Source: Archaeoglobi archaeon
GTDB taxonomy: Archaea > Halobacteriota > Archaeoglobi > Archaeoglobales > Archaeoglobaceae
Direction: 5' to 3'
NCBI GenBank assembly: GCA_004347865.1
Contig: QNUZ01000002.1
Span: forward strand, 1-37,757
DNA length: 37,757 bases
Positions 11,637 to 35,677 of the stretch are shown here, piece after piece. A program made the translations under genes and the position numbers. Position 1 is the stretch's first letter. Each line of letters begins with the position of its first letter. Under the pieces are notes generated by a model. It searched no databases. It was not told the DNA's origin and worked only from the letters and a program-made list of their open reading frames with translations.

Positions 11637-13307
11637 TTAGTGCGGCGGAATAACCGCGTCTCTTTCGCCGTCCGGGAAGAATTCTCTCAGGGCTCCCTTT
11701 GCGAACATCTTTCTTGGCTCTGTCCAGTCGAATTTGAGCGATGGATCTGCGAATGCAACCTTTACTATCGGGTTCACGCACCAGGCGTGCTTGCAGGCAG
11801 CATGGGCTCCAGCGACGATACCTGCGTACTCTCCGCTGTGTCCGACGTTCATTGCGTAGTTCGGGTAGTTCACGCCTCTCAGCTCCAGCGGCAAGCCCTC
11901 GTCGCTTCTGTAGGAGAAGCTGTTCGTCATACCGAGCTGATCCTGCTGGTCGTAACCGTAGAATCCGAGCCTGCCCATGTGCTCCTTGTGGAGGATCATC
12001 GACAGATACCAGCCGTTAACTCCTGCCTGGGCATCTCCAGTTGCGATAGCTGTTCCAACACCGGAAGCTGCTGCAAGAACTGAAGCCCTCTGCGAACCGC
12101 CGAAGTGTGTCTCCATCAGTGCCGGGAAGCGCTCGTACTGCTCCAGGCCGTATAGCGTTGCTTCAGTTGCCACGTCGAGAACTGTGTCCATCGTTCTTGG
12201 GGCCTTTGCAAATCCACCGTACTTCTTCTTCACGTAGTCTGCAATGTAGTAGCAGAAGTCGTCGAGTATGTCGTCCGTGTAAACTGCCGTGGCGTACTGG
12301 GTGAATCCAACTCCGCCCGACATGTATATTCCGAACCAGAGCTGGTCATAGATCACGCTTCCCGCAGCGAGCGTTTCAAGGGCGACCTTTACTGGGTCGT
12401 CAGGATACTTCCTGCTCGTCTGGACAATGTCCGCCAGGTAACCGAATGCAAGTCCGCCCGGCTCATTTGGTCCCCTTGCCCTCCTCCATGGAGTTAGCGT
12501 GGCCATCTGGATAACTTCTGCGTGCTTTGCGGCGTATGCAAACTCCGCAATTGCTGCCTCGCCTGCCATCAGCTTGTATGAAGCGATCATCGCCATGCTG
12601 ATCTGCATCGCAGACCATCTCGAAATCGTGCCTCCGTCAGCAGCCCTTCCGACGATAATTGGAACCCTTGTTACCTGGTAGAGCGATTTGCCGATCGCTT
12701 TCTTCAGAGCTTCGGCCTGCTCAGGTGGGAACTGCTTGTTTATGTCTATAAGGAACCTCTTGTCGATCTGGTCGGCAAGCTCGTCGTTGCCCGTGAAAAC
12801 CTTTACGTAGGAGTCCGCAACCAGCGCCGGATGTATTTCGACCATGTGCTCCTGAACGACCGCACCGCCGGGCAGTGCGTGGTTCACAACCTCCAGATAC
12901 TGGTTGATTGTTTCAGGAGTGACTTCCTTACCCAATCTCTTTTCAAGCAACGCATGAGGAGCATCGAGACCGACGATGACGGTTCTTCTGATGTCATCCC
13001 ACATCTGCTGCATTGCGGCGTTGTTTATGTAGTGCAGATCGTCGCCCTCGACGTAAACGTCTGTGCCGGAGATCTTGTACGGCATCAAGACTCTCTGACC
13101 GACCGGAATTCCGCCCAGGTGCATTTCGGGGTTGTATCCCGGAATTCCCCTCTCCTTTGCGAGCTTCTGAGCCCATTCAACGAATTCCCTCTTTCTTGCG
13201 GACTGCTTCCAGCCGTCGTAGATATAGAATCTCGTCTGCTTTTCAGTCGGGTCCTCTTTGAACTTCTTCTTCAGAGCATCAATAAACAACTTCTTTTCAG
13301 CTACCAT
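11637..13307 (-). CDS. mcrA: Methyl-coenzyme M reductase subunit alpha
   Basis: '[32 protein letters not shown]', '[11 protein letters not shown]', '[30 protein letters not shown]', '[15 protein letters not shown]'. Confidence 0.98.
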
Positions 13308-24573: not shown

Positions 24574-25095
24574 GTGGATGTGAACAGCATGATCTCCTCC
24601 CTGATTCTGAATGAGAATTTTAGTGAGGAGTTGGAGAACATTGTAAAGAAAAGGTTGAGGATGAGCATTAAGGAGTTCGCTAAGGAGGCGGGAATTCCGC
24701 AAAGCACCCTTTACAAACTTCTTTCAGGGGAAAGAGAGCCAAATTTGAGCACTCTTAGAAGGATTGCCGAAACGATAGTCAGACTTACGAAGAGCTCCGA
24801 TGAATTCGTTGCAGTTATTGCCTCAAGATCTGCGCTGAATCAGCTTACAAGCTATGAGCTCGAGATCGAGGGTAAGAAGGTCAAAGTTAGGGAATATCCG
24901 GCCAACTCCTTTGAAGAAGCGGTCGTTTCTGCTGTTAGGGCAGAAAGAGATGGCGCGAAGGCAATAGTTTGCGCCCCAATCCTCAGCCCTGTGCTTGAAA
25001 AGATTCTTAATGTCCCTATTGTTACAATAATCCCTAGGAATGACCTTCTGGAGTCGATAAGAATTGCCGCAAAAAAAGGATTTTCAAGGGCTTAA
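24574..25095 (+). CDS. HTH (XRE/Cro-like) transcriptional regulator, COG1709-like
   Basis: 'MSIKEFAKEAGIPQSTLYKLLSGEREPNLSTLRRIAETIVRL' HTH followed by an archaeal C-terminal domain. Confidence 0.82.
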   Translation: MDVNSMISSLILNENFSEELENIVKKRLRMSIKEFAKEAGIPQSTLYKLLSGEREPNLSTLRRIAETIVRLTKSSDEFVAVIASRSALNQLTSYELEIEGKKVKVREYPANSFEEAVVSAVRAERDGAKAIVCAPILSPVLEKILNVPIVTIIPRNDLLESIRIAAKKGFSRA

Positions 25096-26849
25096 GCACC
25101 GCAACTTCCGCCCCTATTCATTTTCTCTATCATTCCCTCCTCTTCGCTTGCTGCTGTTACCTCTAAGGAGCAGGTAATCTTAAGCTCCAGTTCTTTGAGT
25201 CTCCTGATCATCTCCTCAGGCGTTCCTATTCCCTCAAGTTTTCCTTGGAGCATCAGAGCAACTCTGTCGCATGTGAGCTTTGTGAATTGCATGTCGTGAG
25301 ATATAATCAGTATAGTTGTCTTGAACTCTTCCCTGATTTTTTTGAGGGTTTTCGCAACTTCTACCTTCGTTACGGGATCCATCGTGCCTGAAGGCTCATC
25401 GAGTATCAGTATTCTTGGTTCTCTGATCATAACCTGTGCTAAAGCAACCCTGTGTCTCTGCCCTTCGCTGAGCTCATCGGGATATTTCATCAGTATCGCT
25501 TCTGCTTCAGCTTCGCTGAAACCTATCCCTGTTAGAATGTCTATCGCCCTGACTCTTGCAAATTCTGATGGTAGATCAAGGCTTATGCTGTCTGTAAGAT
25601 TGTCGAGAACGGTTCTGTGAGGATATAGGCTGTACTCCTGGTGTAGAATTCCGATGTAAGGCGTGGCTTTTCCTCTGCCCGAAATTCCAGGAGCTCTCAT
25701 ATCCACCCAATCGTCACCTATGCGTACATAGACTTCTCCACTTGTAACGTCAGCTATTCCGGCAATTATCCTTGACAGAGTGGTCTTCCCGGAACCGCTT
25801 GGCCCAAGGATCCCGAAGATTTCGCCCTCCTTAACTTCGAAAGATACGCCATCAACGGCTTTAACCACGCCCCTGCTCACGGAGTAATAGTATTTTTTAA
25901 CGTCTTTTAGCCTTAAAATTTCCTTTTCAAGCCTGATTTCAGTTCTAATCTCTTCTTCGCTTACCTGAGCCAGGAATTTCTGTATGAGTTCTTCTGGTCT
26001 GCCTTCGGCCAAAATCTCGCCCTTATGCAGCCACAAAACTCTGTCGGAGAGCTCTTTGACTACTTCGGGAATGTGGGAAGTCAGTATCATTGTTTTTCCG
26101 GCATTCTTTATGTACTTTCTCAGTGTCTCCAGTATTATTCTGGTGTTTTCTGGATCCAAGGTGCCTGTTGGCTCATCTGCCAGCAGTAGAACGGGATTTA
26201 TGGCAATCTGCCTGGCAAGGATAACTCTTTGCTTCTCTCCACCGCTCAGGTCTCTCGCAATTGTAAGAATTCGATGTCCTAGATTTACTGCCTTTAGAAG
26301 CTCCAAGGCTCTGTTTGCAACGTTGTTAGAATACTCTGCCTTTTCGAGTATGTCTCTTCTTGTAGTAGTTCCCACAGAAATCCTGCTTTCGGTTTCAGAG
26401 CTGATGATGGCCTCCATTACGTTCTCAAGAGCCGACTTTTCGCTGAAAAGGGCAAACGTTCTCTGGAGCATTATTCCAACTTTCTTCCTGATGGCCGAAG
26501 CAAGCTCCCTGTCTTCAAGCTTCCAGATATCTATTTCCCTTTTCTTAAGCCTTCCACCACATCTCGGGCAATTTTGGCCGTCTTTGCTCGGCGAATCCAC
26601 CCAGTAGCATTCGGGGCATACCGAGAGAATGTATATGACCCTCCCCTCGGTCGGCTCGTAGTCTTTATAACCCCTTATGAGATGAATAAGAACGGACTTC
26701 CCGCTACCGCTGATGCCAATAATGCCAAGGGTTTCTCCCTCCTTGATGCTCAGGTTGATGTTTCTGAGAGCAAAATTATCGCCAAACTTTTTTGAGACAC
26801 CCTCCAAGCGGATGATCTCTTCCGGCAATATTTCCACCTCCAATTCCAA
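25092..26849 (-). CDS. atwA: Methyl-coenzyme M reductase activation component A2 (double ABC ATPase)
   Basis: Two ABC cassettes ('GIIGISGSGKSVLIHLI' and 'GILGPSGSGKTTLSRIIAGI'), zinc-ribbon insert 'CPECYWVDSPSKDGQNCPRCGG' as in AtwA, and genomic context. Confidence 0.9.
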   Translation of the reverse strand: MELEVEILPEEIIRLEGVSKKFGDNFALRNINLSIKEGETLGIIGISGSGKSVLIHLIRGYKDYEPTEGRVIYILSVCPECYWVDSPSKDGQNCPRCGGRLKKREIDIWKLEDRELASAIRKKVGIMLQRTFALFSEKSALENVMEAIISSETESRISVGTTTRRDILEKAEYSNNVANRALELLKAVNLGHRILTIARDLSGGEKQRVILARQIAINPVLLLADEPTGTLDPENTRIILETLRKYIKNAGKTMILTSHIPEVVKELSDRVLWLHKGEILAEGRPEELIQKFLAQVSEEEIRTEIRLEKEILRLKDVKKYYYSVSRGVVKAVDGVSFEVKEGEIFGILGPSGSGKTTLSRIIAGIADVTSGEVYVRIGDDWVDMRAPGISGRGKATPYIGILHQEYSLYPHRTVLDNLTDSISLDLPSEFARVRAIDILTGIGFSEAEAEAILMKYPDELSEGQRHRVALAQVMIREPRILILDEPSGTMDPVTKVEVAKTLKKIREEFKTTILIISHDMQFTKLTCDRVALMLQGKLEGIGTPEEMIRRLKELELKITCSLEVTAASEEEGMIEKMNRGGSCGA

Positions 26850-27174: not shown

Positions 27175-28665
27175 ATGAGGATAAAGCTTAACGGGAAGGA
27201 AATTGATGCTCCCCAGAACACCTCCCTCGCCGATCTTTTGCCTGAAGAAGATAATCTTGTCGTTATAGTTCGGGAAAGAAAGGCTCAGGAGAAGTTGACG
27301 GACACCTTCAAATTGAAGATTGGGAAAGAGAGCATAACTCTAAAGGTGGAAAACGAAGCGCTATGGAACTCAGTTAGGGATAAAATTCAGGGATTGGAAG
27401 TTGCGTGGAGAACTAAGAGGGTTCTGGCTTTTGGCCCTTTTTCCTGCGATCTGCAGTGCTCTAAAGTGCAGCACGACTACGAGCCCGGGGAAATTTTTCT
27501 CAGCCTTGCCGGTGGAAGTAAAGAGAGCGCATATCTGATGTTTGCGGTAACGAGATATCAGCTCGGCCACTGCACGGTTGGTGATGGAGTAATCGGAAGG
27601 GTGATTGAAGGATTCAGGGCATTAAGATTTCTCGAAATTGGTGAAAAGATTGAAAAAATAGAGCCAGTCTTCGACAGAGTGGTTTCGGCCGGGATTAAAA
27701 CAAGAGCTGAAATGACCGAAAGAATCCTTGAAGGCGATGAAATCTATTCCCAGGTTACAGTTGGGCTAAAAAAAGAAGTTGCAAATGCATCAGATTACGC
27801 AATGGCCGTTTTGGAGAGAAACCCCAAGGTGGAGGAAGTGACCAACACCTATGTGAGATTTAAAGGTATAGCGGGTATTGAGATAGGGGAAGAGAATCCG
27901 GAGAAGAGGTTTAGAGGAGCTGTTAGTATAAGAAGGACAGGAAAGAACACAGGAGACATCTACATCTATCTTCGGGACAGAATGCCACACAGAGATCACT
28001 GCGTTGTAGGGTTTGTTGAAAGCGGTATAGAGCTCCTTGAAGTGGCTAAAAAGGGCGATAAGATAAGGATAGTCACCAATCCGGGCAGAATAGATCTTGT
28101 TGGTCTAACCCAGCTACAGGCACAGAAATTGCTTGGGGAAAAGGGTATAAGGCAGCTTAGGGAAGGAGAAACGGATGACAATGCGATAGTGGCTTCGCAG
28201 ATTCCCGAAACGACTTTTGAAATTTTATCGAGAGGAGTGGTTACAACCTTCGGTGTTGCGCCCAATAAGATTGTAAAGGTAAAATTATTCCAAGAACTAG
28301 CACCGAAAACGGCTAGCTATTTCAGAATCGCCACCGGGTTGGTGAACAAAAAGGTGGGAAAGCTGCAGGTGTATTTCAAGACAAAAGATCTTGCGGTTTT
28401 TAGGCCGAATGTTACCTTCGAAGAGCCATTGATTCCGGAGAACACCCCAGAGGAGATCGTGAAGCCCGGAGAGATAGGAGTTACAAACATGTCTAGGAAG
28501 CATGCGGGGCTTATAGGCGTGAGATTCATTGAAAGCAGAGATTTTGGACCCACCGCAGAGCGTTTCGAATCCACGAACCTTGTCGGTGTGGTTTTGGAAA
28601 ACTTTGAGGTTATAAAAAATTCAAAGGAGGGGGAAGTGATCTACTTCATGGAGGTAATGGAATGA
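27175..28665 (+). CDS. Methanogenesis marker protein 3 (UPF0288)
   Basis: 'MRIKLNGKEIDAPQNTSLADLLPE', 'GPFSCDLQCSKVQHDYEPGEIFLSLAGG', 'ATGLVNKKVGKLQVYF', 'NMSRKHAGLIGVRF'. Confidence 0.9.
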   Translation: MRIKLNGKEIDAPQNTSLADLLPEEDNLVVIVRERKAQEKLTDTFKLKIGKESITLKVENEALWNSVRDKIQGLEVAWRTKRVLAFGPFSCDLQCSKVQHDYEPGEIFLSLAGGSKESAYLMFAVTRYQLGHCTVGDGVIGRVIEGFRALRFLEIGEKIEKIEPVFDRVVSAGIKTRAEMTERILEGDEIYSQVTVGLKKEVANASDYAMAVLERNPKVEEVTNTYVRFKGIAGIEIGEENPEKRFRGAVSIRRTGKNTGDIYIYLRDRMPHRDHCVVGFVESGIELLEVAKKGDKIRIVTNPGRIDLVGLTQLQAQKLLGEKGIRQLREGETDDNAIVASQIPETTFEILSRGVVTTFGVAPNKIVKVKLFQELAPKTASYFRIATGLVNKKVGKLQVYFKTKDLAVFRPNVTFEEPLIPENTPEEIVKPGEIGVTNMSRKHAGLIGVRFIESRDFGPTAERFESTNLVGVVLENFEVIKNSKEGEVIYFMEVME

Positions 28666-29441
28666 AGGTTCGATATTTCGTTCTTTCCCCTGATGCGGGC
28701 ACGACGCCAGAGGAGTTAGTTTTCAGGATAATCGAATCTGGTTTTGACGGAATCGTAAAAGAAACTTGCTTCGGGGCAATAATAGAGGGCGAAGATGAAA
28801 GGGTTGACAAAATAGCTGAAATCCTTCGCGGAGAATATTACTACGTTTTTTCCAAGGAAAGAGGTTATTCCATCGGGGATAAGAGGATATGCAGGGCTGA
28901 GCGCGGAGGTGGGGCAAGGACAGGATTTTACCAAATTGAATATGAGTCGGAGTTCCTCCCGCTGATAGCGGAAGCCATAAAGGACTTTAAAATTGAAAAG
29001 ACCAAGAAACCAAAAAATGTAATTGTTCACCCTATCAACAGTTTGATTTTAGCGGATCTGGTCGAAAGAAGCGGTCATAAGCCTTTGACGATGATGACAG
29101 AAATCGCAAAGCTCGTTAGAAACCCGGAAATCGATGCACCACCCAGAAATATAACCACAGAAGACGTGATAAGGGGCCTGAAGTACGCATCAATAGAGAT
29201 GCCCTCCGGTATCAGGGGAAGACTGGGAGTTTGGGACGAGCTCATACAGAATGCGGAGGCCGGATTGGTTGCGAACTACGAATACGCCTTCGGGTGCGCC
29301 GGTTGCACGCACAACGACATGCTTATATACCTGATAAAGCAGAGGGGAATTCCCTTCATAAAGTTGGATCTTCCTAGGAATCAGGAAGAGGCCAAAAAAT
29401 TCGTGGAAGACATTTTCGTATTTCTAAGCAGTTTGGGGTGA
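28662..29441 (+). CDS. Fused methanogenesis marker 6 (N-term) and methanogenesis marker 5 (C-term) protein
   Basis: 259 aa; N-half 'VRYFVLSPDAGTTPEELVFRI...GTCFGA-like' Mmp6-like; C-half 'NVIVHPINSLILADLVERSGHKPLTMM...PSGIRGRLGVWDELIQNAEAGLVANYEYAFGCAGC' Mmp5-like. Confidence 0.75.
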   Translation: MKVRYFVLSPDAGTTPEELVFRIIESGFDGIVKETCFGAIIEGEDERVDKIAEILRGEYYYVFSKERGYSIGDKRICRAERGGGARTGFYQIEYESEFLPLIAEAIKDFKIEKTKKPKNVIVHPINSLILADLVERSGHKPLTMMTEIAKLVRNPEIDAPPRNITTEDVIRGLKYASIEMPSGIRGRLGVWDELIQNAEAGLVANYEYAFGCAGCTHNDMLIYLIKQRGIPFIKLDLPRNQEEAKKFVEDIFVFLSSLG

Positions 29442-30700
29442 TTTTAGTGGTAAAGGTAGCCCTGCTTTCATGCGGTGCTGAATACAGCGGTGTTTACCAC
29501 GAGATCCAGAAAGCGATCGAAATGGTCGGCGGCGAGCTCGTGATTCCTGAGGTGGATCTCCAGGACGTGAAAGAAGTCGACGAAGAGTTCGGAATAGTTG
29601 TAAAGGGGGGAGATCTGAAGCTGATGATGGCAAGAGCGAAGTCAGTTGCCGAAGAGAGATGCGATGCAGACGCTGCATTTGTAGCAACATGCTTCAGATG
29701 TGCCGAGGGCGCTTTGGTTAGAAATGCGGTCAGGAAATACCTTCAGGATTTCCGGGTTCCGGTTGTAGCGTACTCATTTACGGAAAGAAGTAAGGCTGCG
29801 AACTTTTTGCTGAGGATGGAGGCCCTTGTGAACATAGTAAGGAGAAAGCATCTTCTTGCGAGAACGAAGCATGAAGGGATTACGGTTGGCGTTGATTCAG
29901 GATCAACGACTACGAAAGCCGTTGTTATGATAGACAACGAAATCATTGGCGCAGCTTGGCGACCTACGGTCGACATAATTGAAACCGCAGATAAGGTTCT
30001 TGAGGAGGCACTAACAAAGGCGGGAGTGAAGTTGTCTGAAGTTGAAGTGATTGGGACCACTGGCTACGGCAGATTTCTGATTGGAAAGCATCTGAACGCT
30101 GGAATAATTCAGGATGAAATCACTGTTGGAGCAAAGGGTGCAACCTTTCTTGCGGGAAAGCAGAGGGGTGATGTGACGATCCTTGATATAGGCGGAATGG
30201 ACAACAAGGCAATAACAGCCCATGACAGCATTCCAGACAGCTTTACGCTCGGAGGAATCTGCGCGGGTTCTTCAGGAAGATTTTTGGAAACAACTGCGAG
30301 AAGGCTCGGGGTTGACATAATGGAGTTTGGAGAGATGGCGACTCGAGGAGATTACAGAAAGATAAGGATGAACTCATACTGCATAGTTTTCGGAATGCAG
30401 GATCTGACCACGGCTCTAGCTGGCGGAGCAAAGGCCGAGGATGTTGCAGCAGCTGCATGCAGGAGCGTTATAGACCAAATTGTGGAGCAGCAGCTTCAGG
30501 AGATAACGCTCAGAGAACCCATAATCGAGGTTGGCGGTACCTCGCTGCTGAAGGGACTTGTAAAGGCCGTAAGAGAGGCATTGGGAATGGAAGTGATCGT
30601 ACCAAAGTTCTCGCAGTTTGCCGTTGCAACGGGAATGGCCTTCGTAGCTTCAGGAGTGAGGGGGGAATCGAAATATGAGGTTAGCAGTAGAGTCGCCTGA
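29438..30700 (+). CDS. Methanogenesis marker protein 15 (BadF/HgdC-type ASKHA ATPase)
   Basis: 'GVDSGSTTTKAVVMIDNEIIGAAWRPTVDIIETADKVLEEAL', 'ILDIGGMDNKAITA', 'GGICAGSSGRFLETTARRLG'. Confidence 0.92.
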   Translation: MILVVKVALLSCGAEYSGVYHEIQKAIEMVGGELVIPEVDLQDVKEVDEEFGIVVKGGDLKLMMARAKSVAEERCDADAAFVATCFRCAEGALVRNAVRKYLQDFRVPVVAYSFTERSKAANFLLRMEALVNIVRRKHLLARTKHEGITVGVDSGSTTTKAVVMIDNEIIGAAWRPTVDIIETADKVLEEALTKAGVKLSEVEVIGTTGYGRFLIGKHLNAGIIQDEITVGAKGATFLAGKQRGDVTILDIGGMDNKAITAHDSIPDSFTLGGICAGSSGRFLETTARRLGVDIMEFGEMATRGDYRKIRMNSYCIVFGMQDLTTALAGGAKAEDVAAAACRSVIDQIVEQQLQEITLREPIIEVGGTSLLKGLVKAVREALGMEVIVPKFSQFAVATGMAFVASGVRGESKYEVSSRVA

Positions 30701-34948: not shown

Positions 34949-35677
34949 ATGGCGAACAAGGTAGAGCCAGCCCCCGGATGGCCAAAGATTAAAGGAGAGT
35001 ACATGGTTGGCGATCCGAAGAGCTGTGTTGTAGTGGCAACTCTTGGAAGCCATCTTGATGAAAAGAAGCTGATTGAAGCTGGTGCAGGGATGGCAGGGAT
35101 ATGCAAGACGGAAAACATTGGAATTGAGAAGATGGTCGCAAATATCATTGCAAATCCGAACATAAGGTTCCTGATCCTCTGCGGGGCCGAAGTTACTGGG
35201 CACCTGACCGGAGATGCGATAGTGAATTTGTACAAGAACGGAGTGAAGAACAACAGGATAGTCGGCGCCAAGGGTGCAATCCCATACGTTCAAAATCTGC
35301 CAGAGAAGGCTATAGAGAGATTCAGGAAGCAGGTGGAGCTAATTGAGATGATCGGTGTTGAAGATCTCTCAGCGATCACTGCCAAGATCAAGGAGTGCAT
35401 ATCAAAGGATCCAGGAGCTTTCCCAGAACCACCGATGATCGTGGAAATTAAAGAAGAGGCAAAGGAGGAGATTGCCGAGGGAGAAGTGTTCCCAGTACCT
35501 GGAGAAATCGCGAATATAGAGTCCTGGGTTAGGGATATCGAGCTAAAGGTTAAGGAAGTGGCGCTGCTCAACAAATTCTCAGCGGGACTATATGCGGGAA
35601 GATTCCAGGGATTCTGGATCGGATTAACTCTGGCGATGCTTGTCCTTGGTATAATGATGTGGAGGGCGGGAATATGA
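34949..35677 (+). CDS. mtrA: Tetrahydromethanopterin S-methyltransferase subunit A (corrinoid protein)
   Basis: 'APGWPKIKGEYMVGDPKSCVVVATLGSH', 'LCGAEVTGHLTGDAIVNLYKNGV', C-terminal TM helix. Confidence 0.97.
   Translation: MANKVEPAPGWPKIKGEYMVGDPKSCVVVATLGSHLDEKKLIEAGAGMAGICKTENIGIEKMVANIIANPNIRFLILCGAEVTGHLTGDAIVNLYKNGVKNNRIVGAKGAIPYVQNLPEKAIERFRKQVELIEMIGVEDLSAITAKIKECISKDPGAFPEPPMIVEIKEEAKEEIAEGEVFPVPGEIANIESWVRDIELKVKEVALLNKFSAGLYAGRFQGFWIGLTLAMLVLGIMMWRAGI

Follow-up and report, generated by a model that had tools for sequence, protein, structure and literature searches.

In one heat-loving, methane-related genus of the Archaeoglobaceae, two marker proteins of methane metabolism, Mmp6 and Mmp5, are encoded as a single chain, and we regard it as virtually certain that this natural in-frame fusion is real. 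The Mmp5 half shares ancestry, on good evidence, with the alpha/beta domain at the C-terminus of HGD-D proteins, and the gene directly downstream, mmp15, encodes a second domain of this kind joined to an activase of the HgdC type. We propose, tentatively and with slightly less than even confidence, that the genus-specific fusion is an iron-sulfur-binding partner of the Mmp15 ATPase and serves methyl-coenzyme M reductase (MCR). New here are the fusion itself and the finding that both Mmp5 and the N-terminal domain of Mmp15 are related to HGD-D; in the open-access literature, to which our search was confined, we found no description of an Mmp6-Mmp5 fusion, nor of Mmp5 as an HGD-D-like protein.

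Domain content and anatomy of the fusion

The fusion gene lies in the window, by which we mean the whole 37.8-kb contig (C112) that was analysed. The source genome is a metagenome-assembled genome (MAG) of an Archaeoglobaceae member (1.51 Mb, 220 contigs, 95% complete), and in it Mmp6 and Mmp5 are each single-copy, with one locus per family. Both proteins, so far uncharacterised, are used to recognise methane metabolism.

28662-29441, + strand: mmp6-mmp5 fusion gene, 259 aa, ATG start; the ATG overlaps the mmp3 stop codon (ATGA)
28662-28979, + strand: Mmp6 core domain (DUF2102), aa 1-106; TIGR03272 and Pfam matches; ferredoxin-like in the model
28767-28769, + strand: Cys36 of Mmp6 (KETCFG), invariant (29/29 sequences)
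28890-28892, + strand: Cys77 of Mmp6 (DxRxCR), invariant (29/29 sequences)
28980-29015, + strand: junction or linker, aa 107-118; occupies the place of the C-terminal tail of split Mmp6 and is the most divergent part of the fusion
29016-29438, + strand: Mmp5 domain (DUF2112), aa 119-259; TIGR03271 and Pfam matches; similar to the HGD-D C-terminal domain
29295-29306, + strand: CxxC (Cys212, Cys215) within the FGCxGC motif of Mmp5, invariant (23/23 sequences); at the last conserved HGD-D cysteine

The initial annotation had read this open reading frame as two marker families joined, and four family models (TIGR03271, TIGR03272, DUF2102 and DUF2112) do match within the same frame. Both NCBIfam models that had been proposed as a check find the protein, Mmp5 above its curated cut-off and Mmp6 below its own. 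Residues 120-258 match TIGR03271 (Mmp5) with 165.7 bits over profile positions 2-142 of 142, against a cut-off of 140.25, and residues 6-129 match TIGR03272 (Mmp6) with 115.9 bits (E 1e-33), 10 bits below the cut-off of 125.95; this second match spans profile positions 1-128 of 132, and its final part extends into the start of Mmp5. The Pfam models score 103.2 bits for DUF2102 (PF09875) at residues 5-106, where KETCFG and DxRxCR are present (gathering score 25), and 166 bits for DUF2112 (PF09885) at residues 119-258 (cut-off 25). The two-domain join is real, while its placement at about residues 118-122 is somewhat loose: the Mmp6 core ends at about residue 106, and the linker comprises about residues 107-118.

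How are the two proteins joined? The C-terminus of most split Mmp6 proteins is a variable linker followed by a helix of the LDxxKLxxIIExE type (alignment A2). In the fusion this tail is absent, and the core helix (..LIAEAIKDFK) is followed almost at once by the first Mmp5 strand; the missing tail is probably the reason for the Mmp6 score below cut-off. The Mmp6 core domain ends where the two proteins join, and both folds are intact. Since the tail is gone too, mere loss of a stop codon is rejected as the origin of the fusion. The notion that fusion substitutes for tethering by the Mmp6 tail is likewise weakened, since the Mmp6 of family f7, which is neither fused nor linked to mmp5, stops at the same point and is also without a tail. 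Compared with split Mmp5 proteins (TIGR03271/PF09885), the fused Mmp5 keeps all invariant residues, including FGCxGC, and matches over its full length, but it has Mmp6 N-terminal to it, no start methionine of its own and small gaps near the CxxC (alignment A2). Compared with split Mmp6 proteins (TIGR03272/PF09875), the core with KETCFG and DxRxCR is the same, the differences being the absent tail and the score below the TIGR03272 cut-off.

An AlphaFold2 model of the fusion, built from a ten-row alignment (pLDDT 76.6, pTM 0.81), predicts a ferredoxin-like beta-alpha-beta-beta-alpha-beta unit for Mmp6 and a four-strand alpha/beta domain for Mmp5, and the pTM suggests a defined arrangement of both domains. 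From the natural fusion we may soundly infer that the Mmp6 and Mmp5 halves would interact physically. Two observations complicate this view: mmp6 lies apart from mmp5 in families f7 and f17, and mmp5 is paired more tightly with mmp15 than with mmp6. For expression and structure work, the fusion provides a useful single-chain construct with a fixed Mmp6:Mmp5 ratio.

Conservation, distribution and origin of the fusion

In four other genomes of the same genus (G050, G051, G052 and G053) a single uninterrupted frame spans both domains, and in another (G049, 73% complete) the frame passes the junction, the contig stopping shortly after it at '...NPKKVIVHPINSL'. With the window, the fusion is uninterrupted in five genomes and cut by a contig end in one; the contigs of the congeners bear titles of Archaeoglobaceae or Archaeoglobales MAGs. 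Protein identity between the window copy and three of the congeneric fusions is 71-87%, variability is highest in the linker, and whole-gene dN/dS is 0.02 and 0.06 in the two computable pairs, synonymous sites being mostly saturated. That the fusion is maintained under purifying selection across the genus is supported.

How widespread is the fusion? A profile built from the fusions and from concatenated split pairs (alignment A2) was run on 394 Halobacteriota genomes. It found 248 positives, and a full-length match free of stop codons occurs only in the five fusion genomes. The survey that the initial annotation had suggested for other archaea thus confines the fusion, within this phylum, to one Archaeoglobaceae genus, with no second fusion lineage among the 248 positive genomes. 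The fusion is a lineage-restricted variant of two known families. Open frames of 240-310 residues around mmp5 in G165, G367, G271, G247 and G203 were considered as further fusions and rejected; their Mmp6 lies in another frame. A contig scan with a genus-biased alignment returned only six loci, and the viral contigs searched held no relatives of the fusion.

In 67 other genomes, by our count, one or more stop codons interrupt the full-length match, mmp6 and mmp5 being separate genes in the same frame. The stop between such genes (for example in G108) is mostly TGA. Their number is not far from the third of adjacent gene pairs that would share a frame by chance, and we do not read the stop as recoding. 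An even draw of 100 genomes contains 61 positives by our own count: 3 are fused, 16 have neighbouring genes that share a frame but are parted by a stop, 28 have them adjacent in another frame, 12 have them non-adjacent (ten of family f7 and two of f17, the families in which mmp6 is unlinked from mmp5), and in 2 only Mmp6 was detected. In the related family f2 of the Archaeoglobi, which includes JdFR-42 (L013), mmp6 and mmp5 are in different frames and share about 29 bases. Two minor observations concern Mmp6 alone. The tailless f7 Mmp6 (L030-L036, L038), encoded far from mmp5, is unlike that of most other Halobacteriota. Genomes of family f11 have a second, weak Mmp6-like frame (E 6e-14 to 2e-9; G066:C1:1863461, G075:C1:14979, G084:C8:76548 and G093:C76:11449), a possible paralogue.

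In the Mmp5 tree the five fusions form one clade (100/100) on a long stem, which points to a single origin; the clade is not sister to the f2 proteins, and in the Mmp15 tree the fusion genomes likewise stand apart from f2. We propose that adjacent mmp6 and mmp5 would have been joined in frame, with the Mmp6 tail missing, in the ancestor of the genus. Within the genus, mcrA is found in five of ten genomes, precisely those with a complete fusion, and the four congeners without any Mmp6 or Mmp5 match are also without mcrA. One of these four (G048) is 99% complete, so block gain or loss of the MCR genes is possible.

Is the fusion, though real, a neutral accident, in which a small deletion joined two adjacent, often overlapping genes, the domains work no differently from the separate proteins, and little about function can be learned? 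Few mutations would be needed, since most lineages have the two genes side by side (44 of the 61 have them adjacent and split) and in those 67 genomes they share a frame, with a stop between them, and the fusion arose once; however, it has been kept over mostly saturated synonymous sites and down to 71-87% protein identity, though one mutation could split it, its join at the end of the Mmp6 core leaves both folds intact, and the predicted model positions the two domains with a pTM of 0.81. We consider a neutral accident unlikely, though still a substantial alternative. An artefact of assembly or sequencing that merged two open reading frames, named at the outset as a possible error near position 29010, is refuted by the independent uninterrupted copies in four congeneric MAGs and the read-through in G049 and has next to no probability: although all genomes involved appear to be MAGs, five assemblies, and a sixth in part, show the identical frame and join; their DNA has diverged, and the tail is lost in the same way.

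Relation of Mmp5 to the HGD-D family

What kind of domain is Mmp5? In a Foldseek search with the model of the fusion, the best PDB match is the 2-hydroxyisocaproyl-CoA dehydratase subunit HadB (3o3m_B; E 0.009, probability 0.91, TM about 0.3), and the next are benzoyl-CoA reductase BzdNO (8s02) and the double-cubane cluster protein DCCP (7yyl); the small ferredoxin-like proteins MJ1052 and TM0486 are also among the matches. Because these E-values are weak alone, profiles were compared. HHalign, with profiles of 23 Mmp5 and 47 HGD-D sequences, aligns Mmp5 to HGD-D positions 278-375 with a score of 51.2 and a probability of 93.3%, placing the Mmp5 CxxC at the final conserved HGD-D cysteine. As controls, none of 60 column shuffles exceeds a score of 19.4, the reversed profile scores 20.3, and profiles of CfbD, CfbA and activases, constructed identically, reach at most 19.7; the probabilities of the controls are under 2%. 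Mmp6 shows no convincing relation to HGD-D in the same comparison (score 23.7, 4.8%). The Pfam HGD-D model (PF06050) is absent from the fusion at E 0.1 and from seven Mmp5 sequences at E 10, its gathering score not being reached, and sequence searches of the PDB found no relative of the fusion and did not reach HGD-D.

The homology of Mmp5 to the HGD-D C-terminal alpha/beta domain is well supported, and we hold it to be highly probable. Mmp5 has this domain in common with 2-hydroxyacyl-CoA dehydratases, class I benzoyl-CoA reductases and double-cubane cluster proteins. However, HGD-D enzymes have three domains, with the cluster between the N- and C-terminal ones, whereas Mmp5, at about 140 residues, corresponds to roughly one third of such an enzyme and is without the N-terminal and middle domains.

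Mmp15 as a likely partner

The 3' end of the fusion gene runs into mmp15.

29438-30700, + strand: mmp15, N-terminal HGD-D-like domain and BadF/HgdC-type activase; the start is more likely the GTG at 29447
29447-29880, + strand: N-terminal approximately 143 aa of Mmp15, no Pfam match; similar to the HGD-D C-terminal domain, with three invariant cysteines (C9, C82 and C85, numbered from the GTG at 29447)

The N-terminal 143 residues of Mmp15 align with HGD-D in HHalign with a score of 50.6 and a probability of 92.9% (controls at most 22.1). In a structure search with the model, the C-terminal half resembles the activase structures HgdC, HadI and DCCP-R in fold, the full-length model being poor (pTM 0.44). 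Both activase cysteines are kept in Mmp15, in common with 11 other activases.

The gene mmp15 lies directly 3' of mmp5 in 22 of 23 organisms (the exception is L026), including members of families f7 and f17 in which mmp6 is elsewhere; the tightest gene pair is mmp5-mmp15 and not mmp6-mmp5. Similarly, HGD-D genes and HgdC-type activases are neighbours in several of the loci compared (L043-L072). The arrangement characteristic of an ATP-dependent HGD-D/activase module, an adjacent HgdC/BcrAD-type activase with both cluster cysteines, is thus present next to mmp5. It differs from the HGD-D systems in that a second HGD-D-like domain sits on the activase itself. By analogy with these systems, we favour Mmp6-Mmp5 as a functional partner of Mmp15, with better than even confidence. 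If Mmp5 and the N-terminus of Mmp15 are indeed related to HGD-D, three uncharacterised proteins acquire a specific and testable hypothesis.

A putative role with methyl-coenzyme M reductase

What might the fusion protein do? The genes around it are the following.

11637-13307, - strand: mcrA, on the same contig
25092-26849, - strand: component A2 (AtwA), ABC ATPase of MCR activation; TIGR03269, 742.7 bits
27175-28665, + strand: mmp3, MCR activation complex subunit; TIGR03268, 433 bits
30675-31229, + strand: mmp17, MCR activation complex subunit; TIGR03291
31226-32113, + strand: mmp7, MCR activation complex subunit; TIGR03274, 333 bits (cut-off 349); Pfam MCR_C, 326.7 bits (cut-off 25)

The neighbouring marker gene order is retained, as had been noticed at the outset: mmp3, the fusion, mmp15, mmp17, mmp7. 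Positions 10355-37472 hold nearly a whole MCR kit, with mcrA, mcrG-, mcrC- and mcrB-like genes, cfbA, cfbB-E-like genes, A2, mmp3, mmp6-5, mmp15, mmp17, mmp7 and mtr; only some of these genes were matched to family models, and the names mcrB/C/G and cfbB-E rest on reading the translations. The gene content of the window (mcr, A2, mmp3, mmp17, mmp7, cfb and mtr) fits a role with MCR. The MCR activation complex purified from Methanococcus maripaludis contains McrC, Mmp7, Mmp17, Mmp3, A2 and a DUF2098 protein (PMC12176620). The genes for its Mmp3, Mmp17, Mmp7 and A2 flank the fusion here, whereas Mmp5, Mmp6 and Mmp15 are neither mentioned nor named as subunits in the main text on that complex (PMC12176620) and therefore may act before, beside or only transiently with it.

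The initial annotation gave no function, and the HGD-D relation supplies a candidate. We propose that the fusion product would be one subunit of two modules, a ferredoxin-like Mmp6 and an HGD-D-related Mmp5, and that its partner would be Mmp15, in which another HGD-D-like domain is attached to an ATP-driven [4Fe-4S] activase. The invariant cysteines of Mmp6 (two), Mmp5 (two) and the Mmp15 N-terminal domain (three) would hold at least one Fe-S cluster; for Mmp6-Mmp5, cluster binding is predicted by analogy at about even odds. The Mmp15 activase would then hydrolyse ATP to place low-potential electrons onto the clusters, as HgdC, BcrAD and DCCP-R do for their partners, and the electrons, or a cluster, would help to activate or mature the MCR system whose genes share the window. 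A physical Mmp6-Mmp5-Mmp15 complex, the electron transfer and its target are conjectured, and the putative role of Mmp6-Mmp5 in MCR activation or maturation we rate a little short of even. More speculatively, and with lower confidence, Mmp6, Mmp5 and Mmp15 may be an ATP-dependent module, so far unrecognised, that transfers low-potential electrons in MCR archaea; assembled from two single HGD-D-like domains (Mmp5 and the N-terminal domain of Mmp15) and the ferredoxin-like Mmp6, with an Fe-S cluster shared among them, it would stand beside A2, McrC and Mmp7, and two of its parts are fused here. If true, a second ATP-driven redox machine would take part in MCR activation or maturation.

Alternatively, Mmp5, Mmp6 and Mmp15 might build or insert Fe-S clusters, for example those of the [8Fe-9S-C]-like kind in McrC and Mmp7, instead of feeding electrons to MCR during its activation. 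We know of no HGD-D/activase pair that is a cluster-assembly factor, and the characterised pairs are, to our knowledge, reductases or dehydratases; nevertheless, mmp7 lies three genes downstream of the fusion. McrC and Mmp7 carry complex clusters, and the silence of the main text on Mmp5, Mmp6 and Mmp15 in the purified complex is as expected of an assembly factor (PMC12176620); furthermore, double-cubane [8Fe-9S] proteins are among the HGD-D relatives (PMC11971306). On balance, cluster assembly appears to us an unlikely but substantial competitor of electron supply to MCR.

Far less probable is that these Mmp proteins reductively activate a corrinoid, such as Co(II) of MtrA. Although ATP-dependent activating enzymes do reduce corrinoids (PMC6739815), and the mtr genes (mtrEDCBA) directly follow mmp7 in the window, Mmp15 is of the HgdC/BcrAD type, with an HGD-D-like partner, and the fusion tracks mcrA within the genus. 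A service to MCR is the reading that we prefer. Finally, among the mtr products, the C-terminus (aa 186-237) of MtrA (34949-35674) matches MtrF models.
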